A model generated the notes under the pieces. It had not been told where the DNA came from, did no database searches, and saw only the letters and a program-made list of their open reading frames with translations. DNA of 22,397 bases from IMG/VR virus record IMGVR_UViG_3300001681_000095, positions 1 through 22,397 of that record; one strand, given 5' to 3'. The position numbers and the translations under genes are program-made. The DNA comes from a virus. Below, piece by piece: positions 2,113 to 19,537 of the stretch; within the stretch, counting starts at the first letter, position 1, and each line of letters begins with the position of its first letter.

Positions 2113-2886
2113 TTAAAGAGCGCCAAGCTCTGCGAAAGCAGCATCCACTGCGCTGGCTTCGCCACTAGTGGTCTTGCCATACTTCGTGGTCTCGCTGCTC
2201 ACCGATTCCGGGTCGTCGACCTGAGAATTGACAAACGTGTCGAGAATAGCCTGGACTTCTGGGGAAGTCTTTCGCTCAAACAGTCCAGTAAAATCTGGAA
2301 TACTGTCCAGTAGTTCTGCACACTTCTCCGAAGTCATATCCTCACATAGAGTGGAGGAACGACGACGAGGCACAAGCTTCGTCTGCGGGAAGGACGCTCC
2401 AGGCGGCTTTCCGTAAGTCATAACGAGATCAGTGCCAGTCTCGGTGTCGGTGATATCACCATACTCCGGGTTGAGCACAAGCGTCAGGAGGTTCTCATAG
2501 GCAGTCTTGCCGTAACCCCATACACGCACTCCGCGCTCTTCCTCGCCGCGAACCATCACGGGGCTGAAGAAACGCTGTCGCACAAAGAGAGACTTCGCAG
2601 TCTTCTTACTGTGGTCGTCGTTATTGTCTACACCCTCGCGCCATAGCTGTGAGGCGAACTCACAGACAGGACAACCATCGTCGTAGTTGCGCTTGGGACA
2701 TAGAAATCCGCCCTTCTCGATGTTGTAGTGAAACCACATCTCCTTGAAGGGATCCCCATCGGCCGTTGGCACGATGCGAATAGTCTGGTCCCCATCCTCG
2801 GGGCGCCAGAAAGTGTCATTTGAGGAGTTTCCGTCTCCGCGTAGTGACGAGAGCTTTTCTCTCATCTTATCTAAATTGATACCCAT
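2113..2886 (-). CDS. gp32-like single-stranded DNA-binding protein
   Basis: This protein would bind cooperatively to single-stranded DNA at phage replication forks and recombination intermediates and partner the recombinase and polymerase. The 257-residue product opens with a short basic leader (KMREKLSSLRG), as in gp32's cooperativity segment. It then carries a zinc-site pattern His53-x9-Cys63-x8-Cys72-x2-Cys75, matching the His-Cys3 arrangement of T4 gp32 (His64, Cys77, Cys87, Cys90). An OB-fold-like core follows, with GYGKTAYENLL, and the tail is acidic and flexible (from about residue 215, ending AFAELGAL), as expected for partner binding. It is shorter than T4 gp32 (301). The ribosome site is AAAGGA. 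It is first in its transcript, behind a strong promoter and a 5' hairpin, so autogenous control like that of T4 gene 32 is plausible but unproven. Confidence 0.88.
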   Translation of the reverse strand: MGINLDKMREKLSSLRGDGNSSNDTFWRPEDGDQTIRIVPTADGDPFKEMWFHYNIEKGGFLCPKRNYDDGCPVCEFASQLWREGVDNNDDHSKKTAKSLFVRQRFFSPVMVRGEEERGVRVWGYGKTAYENLLTLVLNPEYGDITDTETGTDLVMTYGKPPGASFPQTKLVPRRRSSTLCEDMTSEKCAELLDSIPDFTGLFERKTSPEVQAILDTFVNSQVDDPESVSSETTKYGKTTSGEASAVDAAFAELGAL

Positions 2887-2980: not shown

Positions 2981-3883
2981 TTACTCTTCATCGTAAATAA
3001 GTCCTGTTAGCTCTTCAAAGCGAGCGATCGACTTATCACAGTAATCTTTATCAAATTCACAACCAGTAAAGCTTCGGCCCGTATTTGCTGCAGCAACCAT
3101 GGCTGAGCCGGAGCCGACGAAGCAATCCATTACCACATCGCCAGGATTGGTATTAGCCTTGATGATACGTTCCAATAAAACAATTGGTTTCTGGGTGGGG
3201 TGCCAGCCGGCGTACTCCTTAGAAGTGGTATGATTGTTTTTTATCCACACATCCGTAGGAATCTTTCCTTTTGCAAAAATTGTATTCTTCGACTGCAGGG
3301 ATCCCAACTCTGTTTGTAATTCAACAGTCGTCTTTTTATCATAAGAATACTTCTTCCAACTATGCTGATCCTTTTCCTTGCGCCACTTACGTGGTGACTG
3401 TAAATGGGCACCAATCAAGCGTGTCTTGCGTGTGATATTCATGTTTGTCTTTACAGCGCGTGGAATTCGTATGTCGTCAGCGTTGAAAAGAAAATCCTTT
3501 CCCTTCGAATACATAAGAATGTCTTCGTGCTTACGGGCAAATGTCTTCTTGGTGCGACCACCCCAATCATAAGCCCAAATAATCCAATTCTTATAATGGG
3601 CGTCATCAATGTTATTGAGTACCTCGAGCTTATAGCGCAAGAGAGTGTCTTCTTTGGTAGTACCCCAGACATAGAAGCAGCGGCCGGGCTTGAGCACACG
3701 AAAGCACTCTTCCGTCCATTCGCGACACCATTCTAGATAGGCGTCTTGGTCCTTCCACTGGTTGTCCCATGAATCTGTAATAATTTCAAAATAGGGTGGG
3801 TCGACGCAAATCAGATCTACTGATTCGTCCTCCAGAGTTTTCAAATACTCCATGCAGTCTTGATGTTTAAGTGTAATCCCCAT
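2981..3883 (-). CDS. DNA methyltransferase (N6-adenine or N4-cytosine type)
   Basis: This enzyme would transfer a methyl group from S-adenosylmethionine to an exocyclic amino group in DNA. Counting from the ATG at 3883 (300 aa), the catalytic motif DPPY is at 28-31 and the cofactor motif DCFVGSGSA at 253-261, followed by an acidic strand CEF. A HPTQKP motif typical of the group precedes it. The DPPY-first order fits the beta class. The longer ORF with 18 extra residues is rejected because the ATG at 3883 overlaps the preceding TAA (TAATG), with GGAG just upstream. No restriction endonuclease is adjacent, so it is an orphan enzyme. Protection of phage DNA from host restriction is the likeliest role. 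Recognition sequence cannot be predicted from sequence. Confidence 0.88.
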   Translation of the reverse strand: MGITLKHQDCMEYLKTLEDESVDLICVDPPYFEIITDSWDNQWKDQDAYLEWCREWTEECFRVLKPGRCFYVWGTTKEDTLLRYKLEVLNNIDDAHYKNWIIWAYDWGGRTKKTFARKHEDILMYSKGKDFLFNADDIRIPRAVKTNMNITRKTRLIGAHLQSPRKWRKEKDQHSWKKYSYDKKTTVELQTELGSLQSKNTIFAKGKIPTDVWIKNNHTTSKEYAGWHPTQKPIVLLERIIKANTNPGDVVMDCFVGSGSAMVAAANTGRSFTGCEFDKDYCDKSIARFEELTGLIYDEE

Positions 3884-4716
3884 TACTTCTCCTCTAGTGA
3901 TGATTGTACCACGGATGTGTACTTGATGCAATAGCAATATTTCTGATCATAATTGGTCTGAAATACTCCATACGACACGTTGATGTTATCTTTCTGCTTG
4001 GACTTAACAAAGTCTGTAATCTGTCCAAACAGAGCGCCGTCGCTCCTAAGGTCTTCTTCATTGATACCATAGTAGTATACCACATCTCGCGGCCGTGTCA
4101 ACTCATAAAACCATTTTTCTTCGAGCGCTTCTACATCCAATACTCCCATCGTCGCGATACGTGCAAGTGGCGACGGTTCAATATAGTTGCCCACTACGGG
4201 CTCGGAATAACGAAATACATTAAGCATATGAAATGTGTTGACGATCGCTTGGTTAAGGACATCAAAATATCCCATAATTGGTACGGCGCCGACGCCTTTC
4301 TCTAATAATAGATTGTCTAAAAGATACAGTATTTCTAGTCGCCCGGAGCGAGCGTACTCTTGTAGCACATTACGAGTGACTTTCTCTTGCATTTGTTGGG
4401 CTTCTCCCAGAAGGCCTAGGTCGGGCTGTATATATATGACGGATAACGACCTGTGATTAAGCTGCTCAAGAAGGCGCAGGACACCTCCTGATATCGTCGA
4501 GGCGCCGCATACAATAATATACACAGGTCCAGAAACTAAAGATAGTCTCTTTACAACTGACGGGAAATTCTCGTCGTACTCCTCATGAGTGCTCCGGCGC
4601 TTAATGGTAATGTCTGCCTCTTTCGTCGTATCAATTCCGCACGTATTATATTGTGGAAACTTTGAAAAGGCTTTTACCAAATTGGTGCCAGCTTTGCCTA
4701 GGCCAATTATGTTCAC
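3883..4716 (-). CDS. Highly diverged FtsZ/tubulin-superfamily protein
   Basis: The 277-residue product follows the order of FtsZ segments. NIIGLGKAGTN (2-12) sits where FtsZ has its first strand and Gly-rich nucleotide loop. GIDT (27-30) resembles the FtsZ NTD strand. YIIVCGASTISGG (66-78) is where FtsZ has VTAGMGGGTGTG. IYIQPDLGLLGEAQQMQ (94-110) resembles the RPF-EG-R segment, LDNLLLE (133-139) the NDRLL segment, and YFDVLNQAIVN (150-160) the following helix. A beta-rich C-terminal part (about 220-270) has the strand order of the FtsZ C-domain. The GTP signature is degenerate and no acidic T7-loop catalytic residue is evident, so GTPase activity is doubtful. The GTG at 4716 overlaps the previous TAG (TAGTG); a GTG at 4731 is an alternative start. 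A filament-forming or FtsZ-interfering role is inference. Confidence 0.6.
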   Translation of the reverse strand: MNIIGLGKAGTNLVKAFSKFPQYNTCGIDTTKEADITIKRRSTHEEYDENFPSVVKRLSLVSGPVYIIVCGASTISGGVLRLLEQLNHRSLSVIYIQPDLGLLGEAQQMQEKVTRNVLQEYARSGRLEILYLLDNLLLEKGVGAVPIMGYFDVLNQAIVNTFHMLNVFRYSEPVVGNYIEPSPLARIATMGVLDVEALEEKWFYELTRPRDVVYYYGINEEDLRSDGALFGQITDFVKSKQKDNINVSYGVFQTNYDQKYCYCIKYTSVVQSSLEEK

Positions 4717-5030
4717 TAATCTTCCACCCACTCCAGGATAAGACCTTTGTCAAATCCGCCGCGTGTAATACGTTTAGCAGTCGTTTCTGCCATAACTTCG
4801 CCGTCTCTGATCTCTAAGCGATCACAAATAAAATGAAAGATCTCCATAATGTCTGCTGCCTCTTCCGCGCAAGGGTTCTCCGTGAACTCTGCTACTTCTT
4901 CGTGAAGCTTCTTAAGGGCATAGCCCATTAGCTCTTGGTCGGTCACCTGTCGTATAGCAAAGGACTTGCCAGCGTCAGCAATGACGCCCGGGATACGATC
5001 CCTGATTAGCTTTTGATAAATCTTCTTCAT
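4716..5030 (-). CDS. MazG-like nucleotide pyrophosphohydrolase
   Basis: A 104-residue all-helical protein of the MazG/phosphoribosyl-ATP pyrophosphatase type, which hydrolyses nucleoside triphosphates to monophosphates using bound magnesium. It begins with the KLIRDRIP motif (residues 8-14) of the phage and archaeal branch. It has the metal-binding pattern Glu44-Glu45-x2-Glu48 and Glu57-x2-Asp60, then the RGGF-K motif (90-95). Such enzymes clear abnormal nucleotides, and phage MazG has been proposed to alter nucleotide pools or (p)ppGpp in the host. The start overlaps the polymerase stop by four bases (ATGA), and a promoter candidate lies in the end of the polymerase gene. The stop overlaps the next gene (TAGTG). 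Substrate is not predictable. Confidence 0.85.
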   Translation of the reverse strand: MKKIYQKLIRDRIPGVIADAGKSFAIRQVTDQELMGYALKKLHEEVAEFTENPCAEEAADIMEIFHFICDRLEIRDGEVMAETTAKRITRGGFDKGLILEWVED

Positions 5031-6214
5031 AGCTTAAGTTCCCTCATTTCTCCAAGGTTTTTGCCAACTGAGACATTAACCTTGAACGTATCATACCGTG
5101 TTTCTCTGAACGTGTCAAGCAAATTTAGTAATTCATATCGATCTTCAGCTGCGAGGTCGATGTATACAGCGTCATGAATAAGAAATGCGATGTTGCTCTT
5201 TGTCCCCTTCAAAAGCTCATAGACTTTGTAAGCCTGTTCATGTACCATATCGATTGTGGTGCTTTGAACGACGTAGTTGAGCGCATGATGCTCGTCTACG
5301 TTCTCTATTATTCTACCATAATCTGTCTCAATTTTACAGCCATTCCAGTACTTATCTCGTACTAATTCCTTGTTGTAAAGGTCCTCTAAGTCCTTGTTTT
5401 CCTTATCAGAATACAACCACGCGAAGGTTTTCACTTTGGCCTCCTCTCGGGTCAGATGACCCCCGAAAACGTTCTTGACGTTCCAATTATGAATGTCGTT
5501 CTTGGGTTGCTCCACGCCAGCAAGTGCCAACAACACCCTCAATTCTGCTGCGTTGAAATCAAGCTCGACGAGGTAGTCGTTCTTTGGCTTAATACACGCG
5601 CGGAACTCTTTGTTCATCGTGAGAATCGGCAGACTGTTGGGGTTTGTTGACAGGCGCCCAGTGATCGTCCCCCATGGGTTATAGTCGCACACGTGATTGA
5701 CGGTCTGCAGGGTGCGGTGGAAGTTCATGCCCCGAACACTGCTCAAAAGATGCTTGATCGGATTGATGTCGACACTGATGGTTTGTGAACGGATGTTGGA
5801 GAGCATCTCCACAAGGTTATACATGGGTTCATAATTCGCAGGGCGAGCGAATGTCTCCAAAACGTGCTTAGTGATCTTGTTTTTAGCCTCAAGATACTGA
5901 TATAAGAAGAACTCCGGTACGGTATCGTACAAGCAGTTTTCGTCCAGCGACAGGTGTGATGTTCTAAAGGCCTTGAGACACGCTCTAAGCGTCTCTTTGA
6001 TCTTTTCCCACTCCTCCTTCATGTCTTCCGGACAAACGCTTGTAAGAGGCGCTCCTTGGCTGTAAATACGTCCTATCTCGTAGTGATCACCGGGTAGGTG
6101 CTGGGAATACTCCCATGTTGCGCCGGTGAGGGGCAGCATCGGTGTTGAGTTAATGATGTTGGCTGCGTAAAAACCGACGCAATCAGCTTTTGAATCTAAT
6201 ACCTGAAAAAGCAA
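5027..6214 (-). CDS. Short family A DNA polymerase (polymerase domain only)
   Basis: Template-directed DNA synthesis for phage replication is the inferred role. Residues are numbered here from the first possible start, a GTG at 6247. Motif A is DFNAAELR (230-237). Motif B keeps Arg267-x3-Lys271-x3-Phe275-x3-Tyr279 of the fingers. Motif C is IHDAV with His358-Asp359-Ala360, where the family normally has His-Asp-Glu. The TTG at 6214 is preferred as the start, since AGGGAG lies 5 bases before it, whereas the GTG at 6247 has its purine run directly abutting. At about 395 residues there is no room for a 3'-5' exonuclease domain, so proofreading would need another protein. A split family A polymerase and exonuclease is known in Rhodothermus phage RM378. 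Ala at motif C may lower activity or alter fidelity. Confidence 0.82.
   Translation of the reverse strand: MLFQVLDSKADCVGFYAANIINSTPMLPLTGATWEYSQHLPGDHYEIGRIYSQGAPLTSVCPEDMKEEWEKIKETLRACLKAFRTSHLSLDENCLYDTVPEFFLYQYLEAKNKITKHVLETFARPANYEPMYNLVEMLSNIRSQTISVDINPIKHLLSSVRGMNFHRTLQTVNHVCDYNPWGTITGRLSTNPNSLPILTMNKEFRACIKPKNDYLVELDFNAAELRVLLALAGVEQPKNDIHNWNVKNVFGGHLTREEAKVKTFAWLYSDKENKDLEDLYNKELVRDKYWNGCKIETDYGRIIENVDEHHALNYVVQSTTIDMVHEQAYKVYELLKGTKSNIAFLIHDAVYIDLAAEDRYELLNLLDTFRETRYDTFKVNVSVGKNLGEMRELKL
5090..5118 (-). promoter_or_regulatory. Sigma70-like promoter ahead of the MazG-like gene
   Basis: Minus-strand TTGACA (5113-5118), 17-base spacer, TATGAT (5090-5095). It lies inside the 3' end of the polymerase gene, with a predicted start near 5083 and a leader of about 53 bases to the MazG-like ATG. 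Near-consensus boxes at ideal spacing support it, although the site lies in coding sequence. Confidence 0.5.
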
Positions 6215-6261
6215 TTTGTCTCCCTTAGCAGAGCTGGTGTCTGACACCCTTCTCTATTAGT

Positions 6262-16672: not shown

Positions 16673-19537
16673 TTAGTCGGTAAACGATGCTCCCGTACGA
16701 GTAATATTGAAATCAATTGCGATGAATTCAATGGTTCGTGCTGGCTTCAAGAAAATTCGTGCATACATGATATTTCTATCTACCAAATCGGGTGTAGTTG
16801 TTGTATCGTCCAAAACCACCTTATAGTCTGTTAGACCAAAGTTAGTTTTTACATTCGCCAGGAAGGGATTCACCTGTGAGGTGAAACGTAACCATGTCTG
16901 TTGAATGTTGGGATCGAAAAGAAGCTGCGCAGCAATCTGCGAAATGCGCTTCTTCACGAAGATCATCATACGTCGAACGTTAATCCGGTCGAGTGCTGAG
17001 GGCGTAACCTGCAGGGTCTTCTGGCCGAAGATTACGATACCTTCACTCGGGAATTTAGCGATTGGATTGATGTTCGCGCTATAAAGGTTGTCGCGGTCAA
17101 TCCGGCGAAGCTGGTGGGACACATCAATGATGGGAAGGCCAGCAGAGCCTTCAGTTAGGCCGCCGCGGTTGAAGCCGGCCGGCGCAAACCAGACCTGTGT
17201 CTTACGCTGGGAACTTGAGAAGGTCCCGATTGCAGCCACAGAAGGTGGTACCCAGAGGATAGCTCCATTGATTGAGTCTCTTGCTCGGAGCCACGGATAG
17301 AAAGTACAGCCGTATGACGAATTCAAACCCCGGTTGCGTAGATTGGTAATTACCTGCGTTAGGGCGCTAGATATATTGTTGCGAACCAGGGTTCGCCCTT
17401 CTGCGCGGGGTGTGAAACCGCCGGCGACGTCGACAACTGCCAAGGCATCAGCACGGTCTTCGCATGTTTGAATCAAGTGTGTAGTCAGACCGTCATCAGT
17501 GAGGCCCGGAACAGAAGCAAGGTTCATTTCCACCACTTCGGGATCAGCCACCGCGTCAATTGCACGCTTGATGGTTGCTCTGGCGTAGTTGTTGTTTTCG
17601 TTTGTACTATCATCTATGAAACTGTTACGGAACGGGTCCATCTCAACAATATCCAGACCATCAAAGCCGCCATAGAGAGGGACGGTGAAACGGTCATAGC
17701 CAGCGTCGAGGACACCCTTTGTTGATCCGGTTGTTGCAGTATAGGATCTACCGCTTCCAGAAACTCCGCCAGTCATTCGGGCAGTCAGGGACCAGACGGC
17801 CGTGCCAGACAGAGGATAGAGATCATCTAGTGAAAATGCGACAGCGCGCTCGCTTCGAGCAGATGCCGGCGCGAAATCGTTTATAATGCCGCCGCGGGGG
17901 CGCAGGACATCTTCGACGGAGCCATCAAAACGAGTGCTTCCGACTGCCGTTGTTGTACGGAAGCCAAAATATGCATCTGTATCGTTAGATAGTCCGCCCG
18001 CACTCGCGCTTACGCGGAAGGCGGCTTGGGGATAAAGCATTAGAAGGTTTGGATCCAGGCTAGCCGTCTGAAGCATAAGTGTTCTGCCTCTGCCGGACCC
18101 GGACATGCCACCGTCGAAGTGACGGGACGTGTCGGAACCAGTAACCCAGTTGCCTGCGCCGGCGGAAGCGGAAATTAGCTCATCATTATACTTCACCATC
18201 CCCAAGAAACCAAAGGGAAGATAACGAGCGTCTAGGGCTCCGGCGGCGAGGTCACTGTTTACTGCAACACGAATATAATTAGAAACATTTGGCCAATCAC
18301 CGATGGTACGGTAACGGCGTTCTGCAGCAATCCACTGAGTATATTGAGTTCCGATCTTTCGACCAATGTAGTTTAGTGAACCAGGATTCAAATCACAATC
18401 GTTGAACTGCTCCAAAATCTGTACTACATTATCTGAATCAGCCAATCGACGAATAACAACGCTGAAGGATCCGTAGGGATTGCTTGTATTTGTTGATTCT
18501 TTGATGTCCTGGATTGAAATCTTGAGATTTCGATTGGTCCAATCTCCGGATTGCTTAAGGCTTATGCAGCTGAACAGTTGCTGCTGATTGGCGGCGACAT
18601 AGCTTGCGGTTGCAGTTGTCAGGTCCTGGGCAATGATTTGAGGGGTCTCCCCACCTACGAGCTGACTTTTGTGGTCTCCGGTAGAGGTACTGTCCGTAGC
18701 ATTGTAAAGAGGGATTATGGCGGCCAGGTAAGTACCGGTATTAATATTATCTTTTAGGTGTTGATCAAATGTTTCGCCCAACCAGTAGTTTGTCTGCTGT
18801 TTCGGATTTGTAACAGTACCATTTGTAAGCTGCGGGTTTGTGTTGAATACCTTGCGAATATACTTTTCCGAAGTTGTATCAAAGTTAAACGATGCAGTCA
18901 TTCCCATGGATCCGGAGGCGTTAGGAATAACAGCCTTGAACTCATAGTTCGCACCAATTTGTTTGAAACCAGTGTTCATGCCTATGGAAGCGCTGCTCGT
19001 CCCCGAGCCGACGCCGCCGAAGACAGTTCCTGTAAGCAATGCAGTACAACCGGCTGCGGCGTCTGTATAGAAAATAGCAGCGAGGGCTCCGGTGAGGGTG
19101 CCGGTCGAGGCGGGACCCACCGATGCCGAATCAAATATAAAGAGGCCCATAGCACTAGATGTTGCATTTGTGCTCAGTGCCCAGCCGGCTGTCCCGGCGC
19201 CTGCAGCAGCATTGGGGGCTTGTGATCCCAAGAGACGAATATAGGTTAGGGGTGAACTGTTACGGAGATATGCCTGTGCTGCGTATGTTCCATACATCGG
19301 CGAGACCTGATTGCCTTCGCGCCAGACGTCACCACCTACTCCACCGGGCACTGGCGTGCCAAAGATGTTCACAAATTCCGAGAAGGAATTAACTGTGATG
19401 GGGCGAAGGGCTGGGCCCTTTTCGGCGCGGCCAATAATGACGGGGCCAATTCCGGCTGGAGAAGCTGGAAGTTGGGAGTTGTCGATCTCGTTGACAAACA
19501 CTCCGGGTGATACAAATCTGTAATTCTTCACTGACAT
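16673..19537 (-). CDS. Contractile tail sheath protein, oversized (gp18-like)
   Basis: Subunit of the contractile sheath, which shortens to drive the tube into the host. The product starts SPGVFVNEIDNSQLP and GPVIIGRAEKGPA, as other sheaths do. The middle and end carry the standard features: VDVAGG, NSSYGCTFYPWL, WVPPSVAAIGTF, WFAPAGFNRGGL, INPIAKFPSEGIVIFGQKTL and RRMMIFVKKRI. At 954 residues it is nearly 300 longer than T4 gp18 (659). The extra material is in the first two thirds, including an Ala/Gly/Ser/Thr-rich block (about 112-205) with the look of surface-exposed beta domains. AGGAGACC precedes the ATG by about 9 bases. Confidence 0.93.
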   Translation of the reverse strand: MSVKNYRFVSPGVFVNEIDNSQLPASPAGIGPVIIGRAEKGPALRPITVNSFSEFVNIFGTPVPGGVGGDVWREGNQVSPMYGTYAAQAYLRNSSPLTYIRLLGSQAPNAAAGAGTAGWALSTNATSSAMGLFIFDSASVGPASTGTLTGALAAIFYTDAAAGCTALLTGTVFGGVGSGTSSASIGMNTGFKQIGANYEFKAVIPNASGSMGMTASFNFDTTSEKYIRKVFNTNPQLTNGTVTNPKQQTNYWLGETFDQHLKDNINTGTYLAAIIPLYNATDSTSTGDHKSQLVGGETPQIIAQDLTTATASYVAANQQQLFSCISLKQSGDWTNRNLKISIQDIKESTNTSNPYGSFSVVIRRLADSDNVVQILEQFNDCDLNPGSLNYIGRKIGTQYTQWIAAERRYRTIGDWPNVSNYIRVAVNSDLAAGALDARYLPFGFLGMVKYNDELISASAGAGNWVTGSDTSRHFDGGMSGSGRGRTLMLQTASLDPNLLMLYPQAAFRVSASAGGLSNDTDAYFGFRTTTAVGSTRFDGSVEDVLRPRGGIINDFAPASARSERAVAFSLDDLYPLSGTAVWSLTARMTGGVSGSGRSYTATTGSTKGVLDAGYDRFTVPLYGGFDGLDIVEMDPFRNSFIDDSTNENNNYARATIKRAIDAVADPEVVEMNLASVPGLTDDGLTTHLIQTCEDRADALAVVDVAGGFTPRAEGRTLVRNNISSALTQVITNLRNRGLNSSYGCTFYPWLRARDSINGAILWVPPSVAAIGTFSSSQRKTQVWFAPAGFNRGGLTEGSAGLPIIDVSHQLRRIDRDNLYSANINPIAKFPSEGIVIFGQKTLQVTPSALDRINVRRMMIFVKKRISQIAAQLLFDPNIQQTWLRFTSQVNPFLANVKTNFGLTDYKVVLDDTTTTPDLVDRNIMYARIFLKPARTIEFIAIDFNITRTGASFTD

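Follow-up and report, generated by a model that had tools for sequence, protein, structure and literature searches.

We analysed a 22,397-nucleotide stretch of viral DNA (IMG/VR record IMGVR_UViG_3300001681_000095, positions 1 to 22,397; hereafter the window) and focused on Z2, a 277-residue protein encoded on its minus strand. Judged by its predicted fold, Z2 very probably belongs to the FtsZ/tubulin superfamily, and the loss of conserved active-site residues makes it quite likely to be GTPase-dead. Z2 is encoded in a conserved replication gene block, and we consider it, with a probability of roughly 0.5, to be a non-hydrolysing FtsZ/tubulin-fold protein that acts as a scaffold or adaptor in phage replication.

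3883..4716, minus strand: Z2, degenerate FtsZ/tubulin-fold protein by prediction, 277 aa (open reading frame (ORF) call, family, AlphaFold2 model, Foldseek, VIA-align)

Predicted fold of Z2

The AlphaFold2 model of Z2, built from an 18-row alignment, had a predicted local distance difference test score (pLDDT) of 82.6 and a predicted TM-score (pTM) of 0.84. When the model was compared with the Protein Data Bank (PDB) using Foldseek, 372 matches were obtained at E <= 1e-3, the best of which was FtsZ (E 6.3e-12; TM-score relative to the query (TMq) 0.70), and the best 50 of the 372 were all FtsZ or TubZ entries. The match spans residues 1-277, C-terminal domain included. In VIA-align the model gave a Z of 23.2 to CetZ (3zid; 254 residues, 3.2 Å), nearly tied with CetZ2 (22.3), TubZ (22.2) and FtsZ (21.9), and tubulin reached at least 20. 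Among viral predicted structures, the best of eight rows at E <= 1e-3 was a protein of 452 aa from an uncultured Caudovirales phage, named 'FtsZ Cell division GTPase' (E 1.5e-12, TMq 0.73). Some of the eight are named cell division protein, tubulin or PhuZ and four have no function in the name; PhuZ of phage Noxifer matched at TMq 0.49 and E 1.1e-7.

The secondary-structure elements of the model follow the FtsZ order, with no helix at the place of H8, and we take them to be S1-H1-S2-H2/H3-S4-H4-S5-H5-S6-H6-H7-S7-S8-H10-S9-S10. An N-terminal GTPase-type domain, H7 and a C-terminal beta domain are all present in the model, and the last strand (260-267) is followed by ten residues without a helix. 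For a second model we used an alignment of 28 sequences, all from the L018 subclade and none from the window subclade. Its pLDDT was 68.2, its best Foldseek match in the PDB was FtsZ at E 1e-9, and its comparison with CetZ, FtsZ and tubulin gave Z up to 17.0 with root-mean-square deviations mostly of 4-6 Å. The initial annotation had proposed that a structural search would match FtsZ/tubulin over both the N- and C-terminal domains; this is what the Z2 model gave, and the other subclade agrees at lower confidence.

Active-site residues of Z2

To FtsZ, residues were assigned by hhalign, and their conservation was counted over 124 distinct Z2 sequences, taken from 161 rows (160 loci and the window, L021 being the window itself), of which 156 had at least 255 aa without X. 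The relevant segments are as follows.

4681..4704, minus strand: T1 loop G-L-G-K-A-G-T-N, residues 5-12, on FtsZ G17, G19, G22 and N24 (hhalign)
4486..4506, minus strand: degenerate T4 (tubulin signature) loop G-A-S-T-I-S-G, residues 71-77 (hhalign, column counts)
4312..4314, minus strand: N135 after strand S6, on FtsZ N165 (hhalign), N in 121/124
4252..4266, minus strand: H7 start F151-D-V-L-N155, on FtsZ F182...N186 (hhalign)
4159..4209, minus strand: residues 170-186 at the place of T7 and H8, a proline-containing loop with no helix (DSSP of the model) and no conserved acid

In T1, G5, G7, G10 and N12 of Z2 fall in turn on the four FtsZ residues; G5 and G7 are each kept in 122 sequences (2 gaps), G10 in 95 and N12 in 65. 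At the start of H7, position 151 is F or Y in 120/124 and N155 is kept throughout. We take FtsZ F182 and N186 to be the counterparts of tubulin Y224 and N228, guanine-side pocket residues. Among the remaining loops, FtsZ D45 in T2 falls on the variable T31, the T3 loop of FtsZ falls in a deletion, and the T4 loop has two residues fewer in the alignment than G103-G111 of FtsZ. G71, on FtsZ G103, is the sole invariant glycine there (124/124) and the rest of GGGTGTG is replaced: residue 74 (on T108) is variable, and residue 75 (on G109) is I, S, T or V in 122/124. In H5, FtsZ R142 falls on M109, also variable. The T7 motif N-x-D-x-x-D is not found in Z2, and the most acidic columns between residues 166 and 186 are 172 (96/124) and 183 (86/124; P in the window). 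The columns kept in 124/124 are G71, Y150, N155, H163, G176 and R210.

According to the excerpted text of a study of Staphylococcus aureus FtsZ (PMC8936486), assembly or hydrolysis depends on D46, R143, N208, D210 and D213; the first two correspond to Escherichia coli D45 and R142, that is, to T31 and M109 of Z2. Considering that the guanine-side residues are kept and that T4, T3 and T7 are lost, the pocket seems to be preserved on its base side and lost on its phosphate and catalytic side. Z2 is quite likely to have no GTPase activity. The degenerate GTP signature and the missing T7 acids, first noticed in the window protein, thus hold across the family.

Sequence comparison with FtsZ

Searches of Pfam, PHROGs, NCBIfam and PDB with the Z2 protein gave nothing usable, and neither did Pfam, PHROGs and PDB searches with the alignment. 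The Pfam rows of the window protein, taken to E 10, did not include PF00091, the sole PDB sequence row was dihydropteridine reductase at E 1.6, and matches to PF00091 over T1 only (E 0.006-0.009, under the cut-off) were seen in two viral records. When a 30-row Z2 alignment was compared with nine FtsZ sequences by hhalign, a colinear local alignment was obtained over residues 1-163 (158 columns, score 24.3, P 0.027). None of 100 column-shuffled controls reached this score (maximum 22.0, longest 80 columns). With all 124 sequences the score was 23.6, which again 0/100 shuffles reached (maximum 21.7), and reversed Z2 alignments scored 16.1 and 18.6. The number of effective sequences (Neff) of Z2 alignment A2 was 2.8. 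The local alignment pairs 'IDT' of Z2 with 'NTD' of FtsZ, G71-x5-G77 with the GGGTGTG loop, the 'DNLLL' segment so that N135 falls on N165, and also S5, H5 and the start of H7. The FtsZ order of segments read from the window protein therefore agrees with the predicted secondary structure and with a colinear, albeit weak, alignment.

Several results weigh against a superfamily member with a role in replication. The initial annotation had held that profile searches with no FtsZ/tubulin match would speak against it, and Pfam, PHROGs and PDB indeed returned none: the best Pfam row for the window protein was TrkA_N (E 0.0026, below the cut-off), PF00091 matched 1/18 Z2 members at 0.14, and the PDB profile search with the alignment had 0 matches. 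The hhalign probability for Z2 and FtsZ was 1.8%, which carries no significance, and a global hhalign comparison scored 6.4 over 11 columns, within the range of 20 shuffled controls (0.4-9.9, two higher). The L018-subclade model is weak in its C-terminal half, with a mean pLDDT of 68.2 and TMq of 0.44-0.67 among the matches listed. As the local alignment stops at residue 163, the statement on T7 and H8 draws on column counts and the model. Conserved D99, Q119, R123-S124-G125 and H163 have no assigned meaning and could mark a different enzymatic function, and gene order is the one line of evidence that places Z2 in replication. Regarding the fold, we judged that the match of the predicted structure outweighs the absent profile match.

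Z2 family and selection

Z2 starts at GTG 4716 and has one base in common with the stop of the small gene upstream; a longer start at GTG 4731 is possible. The ORF of about 277 aa on the minus strand was confirmed as first called, and it is real and conserved beyond chance. The family is large and occurs in uncultivated tailed viruses. A scan with the 18-row alignment gave 378 pattern matches, 358 of which were confirmed stretches, a single-protein scan gave 20 loci, and a divergent member as query gave 69, with 2/69 already known from earlier scans. The best 80 of the 358 stretches were kept, so the sizes of the subclades reflect retrieval. No match was found with three Z2 members in a tblastn search of 50,697 phage records, and no relative with alignment A2 in GTDB genome contigs. 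The initial annotation had asked whether the family recurs in other marine viruses; it recurs in other uncultivated viruses, and a marine origin is not evident from the contig names.

Thirty Z2 sequences, the window included, have 24 invariant columns at identities to the window down to 33%. Compared with three relatives (L022, L023 and L024), proportions of nonsynonymous (pN) and synonymous (pS) differences were 0.17-0.20 and 0.70-0.81. The ratio of nonsynonymous to synonymous substitution rates (dN/dS) was 0.10 against L023, the sole pair with unsaturated dS, synonymous sites being saturated for L022 and L024. Z2 is under purifying selection.

Gene neighbourhood

Neighbourhoods were compared on 160 contigs (the window and 159 loci), with mechanical ORF calls and single-linkage blastp clusters; the identities of polA and gp32 come from Pfam matches of the window genes. 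The genes around Z2 in the window are as follows.

5027..6247, minus strand: family A DNA polymerase, short, 406 aa (PF00476, E 4.5e-15), conserved upstream neighbour
4716..5030, minus strand: small ORF (blastp cluster), called MazG-like in the initial annotation, label not confirmed
2981..3889, minus strand: DNA methyltransferase between Z2 and gp32 (PF01555, E 1.2e-46)
2113..2886, minus strand: gp32-like single-stranded DNA-binding protein (SSB; PF08804, E 8e-15), after the methyltransferase in the window

The gp32-like cluster lies directly downstream of Z2 in 143 of the 147 loci with a downstream call (70/74, 10/10 and 63/63 by subclade), and the polA cluster lies at most two genes upstream in 128/139 (62/73, 7/7 and 59/59). 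The placement of Z2 in a replication module, as proposed from the window, is thereby confirmed. The methyltransferase follows Z2 directly in 4/147 loci, namely the window, L022, L023 and L024, to which its cluster is confined; it is a local insertion between Z2 and gp32. The small-gene family is directly upstream in 65/149 loci, all of the window subclade, and in 0/72 of the two other subclades. The conserved block is therefore polA-(small gene)-Z2-gp32. Regarding the two flanking genes first named, the methyltransferase does adjoin Z2, in those few loci, whereas the MazG-like label of the upstream gene found no confirmation: at 1e-3 the small ORF had no match among Pfam or PHROGs families, at 0.01 it had none among solved structures, and in NCBIfam it gave a YfbU-family match only (E 0.0067, 16.7 of 90 bits).

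The window polymerase is unusually short, and families match its polymerase region only, with no 3'-5' exonuclease part matched in the ORF. Elsewhere in the window, a UvsX/RecA-like ORF at one end of the contig (13-615) has 200 aa, about half as many as the ORFs that look UvsX-like by eye in L351-L354 (388-418 aa); the contig edge is near its stop, which may be an assembly end effect. The tail sheath protein of 954 aa (16673-19537) is matched by sheath families over about its C-terminal third only.

Z1, a second FtsZ-like protein in related viruses

A search of 12 records with PF00091 passed the cut-off in two, L161 and L162, and revealed a further FtsZ-like protein of ~380 aa, which we denoted Z1.

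L161:1285-2439 and L162:1309-2445, also L286, L290, L303, L308 and others: Z1, GTPase-intact FtsZ-like protein with an N-terminal extension of variable length

The gene directly before Z1 in L161 and L162 is presumably gp46-like. Rescored as proteins against PF00091, the two gave 36.4 and 32.4 of 33 bits, L162 being just under the cut-off, and 20/20 members matched the family at E <= 0.01. Z1 aligned with FtsZ by hhalign at 98.1% (E 7.6e-14) and matched 50 FtsZ/CetZ/TubZ-type PDB sequences; in PHROGs, two of three Z1 scanned matched phrog_17961 weakly and one had no match. The T4 motif GGGGGTGS and the acids D273 and D276, which fall on FtsZ D209 and D212, are invariant in a 20-row Z1 alignment. 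Z2 as a decayed copy of Z1 was not supported, as hhalign paired the T1 stretch only, at 0.5-2.2%.

The co-occurrence of the two proteins was assessed in records chosen for Z2 or for Z1, none of which is rated complete, so that a missing match may reflect a fragmentary record. A single Z1 query detected Z1 in 5/30 Z2-chosen records, two of them holding contig-end fragments (G015 and G006). Z1 profiles found it in 1/30 and 1/10 partly overlapping Z2-chosen records, G006 each time, the ten being large window-side records. Seven Z2-chosen records have at least 100 kb; Z1 was present in two (G003, and G006 as the contig-end fragment) and not found in G001, G002, G004, G005 and G009. When ORFs of at least 60 aa from G001 (194 kb) and G005 (165 kb), taken as separate pieces, were searched with a Z1 profile and filters off, none matched (best E 1.3), and no Z1 was seen by eye in these two records at the place syntenic to that of G006. 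By eye, G001 (~149.8-154.3 kb) and G005 (~145-149.5 kb) carry three adjacent genes that we take to be YeaH/DUF444, SpoVR and a PrkA-type kinase.

Z2 was in turn found in 9/21 and 6/13 Z1-chosen records, and in 9/11 of those of at least 130 kb (7/7 and 2/4). In G061, G065, G071 and G072, polA is close to a gene that looks gp32-like by eye, and the genes between the two include no Z2 match; G065 and G071 are nearly identical in this region, and polA was not found in G064, G068 and G070. In the Z2 tree the window groups with records where Z1 was not found, and the label 'Z1 found' needs two changes on this tree; it combines Z1-chosen with Z2-chosen records and says nothing about frequencies. An obligate pair was rejected, since each protein occurs in records without the other being detectable; neither therefore appears to need the other. 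Considering this patchy co-occurrence, the gain or loss of Z1 seems to have been independent of that of Z2, and Z2 can probably act without Z1.

A genome-contig scan with Z1 alignment A3 gave one Z1 contig, L261 (PAAD01000063.1), with Z1 at the contig start, in a metagenome-assembled genome titled Flavobacteriaceae bacterium NAT231; this is possibly a host hint or a misbinned phage contig. In phage records, the sole match to the Z1 query was a weak one (24%, E 3e-3) in Bacillus phage G (JN638751.1, 78812-79360; same place in NC_023719.1).

Role of Z2 and alternative explanations

We lean slightly towards a role of Z2 in phage replication rather than in host takeover. Three indirect lines of evidence made a replication scaffold or adaptor seem most likely to us: the order of the genes, the even conservation of Z2 and its independence from Z1. 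In such a role, Z2 might still bind guanine nucleotide or use the vestigial pocket structurally, and would be a non-switching subunit, scaffold or adaptor that organises the replication apparatus. It would perhaps contact itself head-to-tail, or another FtsZ-like protein, namely the phage Z1 where present and otherwise host FtsZ. Without T7 acids Z2 should be unable to complete the active site of a neighbour, and therefore any assembly would be static and not GTP-cycled. A more specific version, in which Z2 is a replisome-linked pseudo-tubulin that reads guanine nucleotide without splitting it, assembles statically around polymerase and SSB and, together with Z1, makes a two-tubulin system in some lineages, is speculative, and we know of no such protein.

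The main rival, possible yet less favoured than a replication role, is that Z2 is a decoy or poison subunit that mimics the FtsZ fold, binds host FtsZ and stops division. An FtsZ fold with a degenerate active site would suit such a protein, and 9/10 window-side records searched had no detectable Z1-type partner for Z2. Phages do encode other inhibitors of FtsZ, as stated in the excerpted texts on T5 Hdi (PMC10714956), lambda Kil (PMC3961180) and T7 Gp0.4 (PMC13423816). However, a decoy would require FtsZ in the hosts, and the even conservation of Z2 and its position in a conserved replication block in all three subclades argue mildly against a host-specific decoy. Genes for host takeover are typically variable.

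It is less probable that Z2 is a cap or co-subunit of Z1 filaments, which could apply only where Z1 exists. While the intact motifs of Z1 (GGGGGTGS, D273, D276) and its co-occurrence with Z2 in most of the Z1-chosen records of at least 130 kb would fit this, Z1 was found in only 2/7 Z2-chosen records of at least 100 kb, once as a contig-end fragment, the pieces of G001 and G005 held no matching ORF, and some records have Z1 and no detectable Z2.

Similarly doubtful is a monomeric guanine-nucleotide sensor or nucleotide-metabolism protein that works with the MazG-like protein and the polymerase and is not cytoskeletal. The retained guanine side, the lost assembly and catalytic loops and the small gene directly upstream in 65/149 loci are consistent with it, whereas that gene is directly upstream in none of the 72 loci of the two other subclades and its MazG label is unconfirmed. 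To our knowledge, there is no tubulin-fold protein of this kind. Finally, a GxGxxG-containing nucleotide-binding protein of the ordinary Rossmann type, to which the N-terminal GLGKAG and the sub-threshold TrkA_N and dihydropteridine reductase rows would point, is very improbable, and the NAD-binding reading was rejected on the fold, as the match extends over residues 1-277 and takes in the C-terminal domain of the tubulin fold, its best 50 of 372 rows are FtsZ or TubZ, Z is 20-23 and the second subclade repeats it.

Comparison with known systems

Z2 shares with CetZ, FtsZ and TubZ the two-domain predicted fold over its full length, the T1 glycines, the S6 asparagine and the start of H7; it differs in its 277 aa and in lacking GGGTGTG, T3 (a deletion), the conserved T7 aspartates and H8. 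PhuZ and TubZ form GTP-driven filaments, in partition and in the jumbo-phage spindle. Like PhuZ and the phiKZ TubZ of jumbo phages, Z2 is a phage-encoded protein of predicted FtsZ/tubulin fold, whereas their T4 and T7 GTPase motifs are active and Z2 has neither. The excerpted text of PMC3678025 describes phiKZ TubZ as an active phage tubulin and, for PhuZ/TubZ phage tubulins, binding along the protofilament by a C-terminal helix and tail; helix and tail are not in the Z2 model. A survey of 224 jumbo phages reports, in its excerpted text, two distinct FtsZ/tubulin representatives (PMC7824862).

FtsZl1 and FtsZl2 are, as excerpted from PMC2875224, divergent cellular branches of the superfamily and in this resemble Z2. 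FtsZl1, whose T6-H7 elements are not identifiable, has a coiled-coil domain and is encoded in cellular operons with vWA-domain and membrane proteins (PMC2875224), in contrast with Z2, which is short, has no extra domain, retains H7 in its model and is encoded in a phage replication block. Z1 likewise belongs to the FtsZ/tubulin superfamily and occurs in part of the same viruses, but has ~380 aa with intact GTPase motifs, and a sequence relationship to Z2 could not be demonstrated (2.2%). In the literature searched, which mostly left out subscription papers, we found no account of an FtsZ-like protein that is GTPase-dead and encoded within a phage replication block.

If Z2 does act as a non-hydrolysing scaffold or adaptor, it would show that a replication system can use the tubulin fold without GTP hydrolysis. 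The Z2 family makes it a testable question whether a tubulin-fold protein organises the phage replisome, and, as some of these viruses encode Z1, genomes that have it with, without or in place of Z2 are naturally available for comparison.

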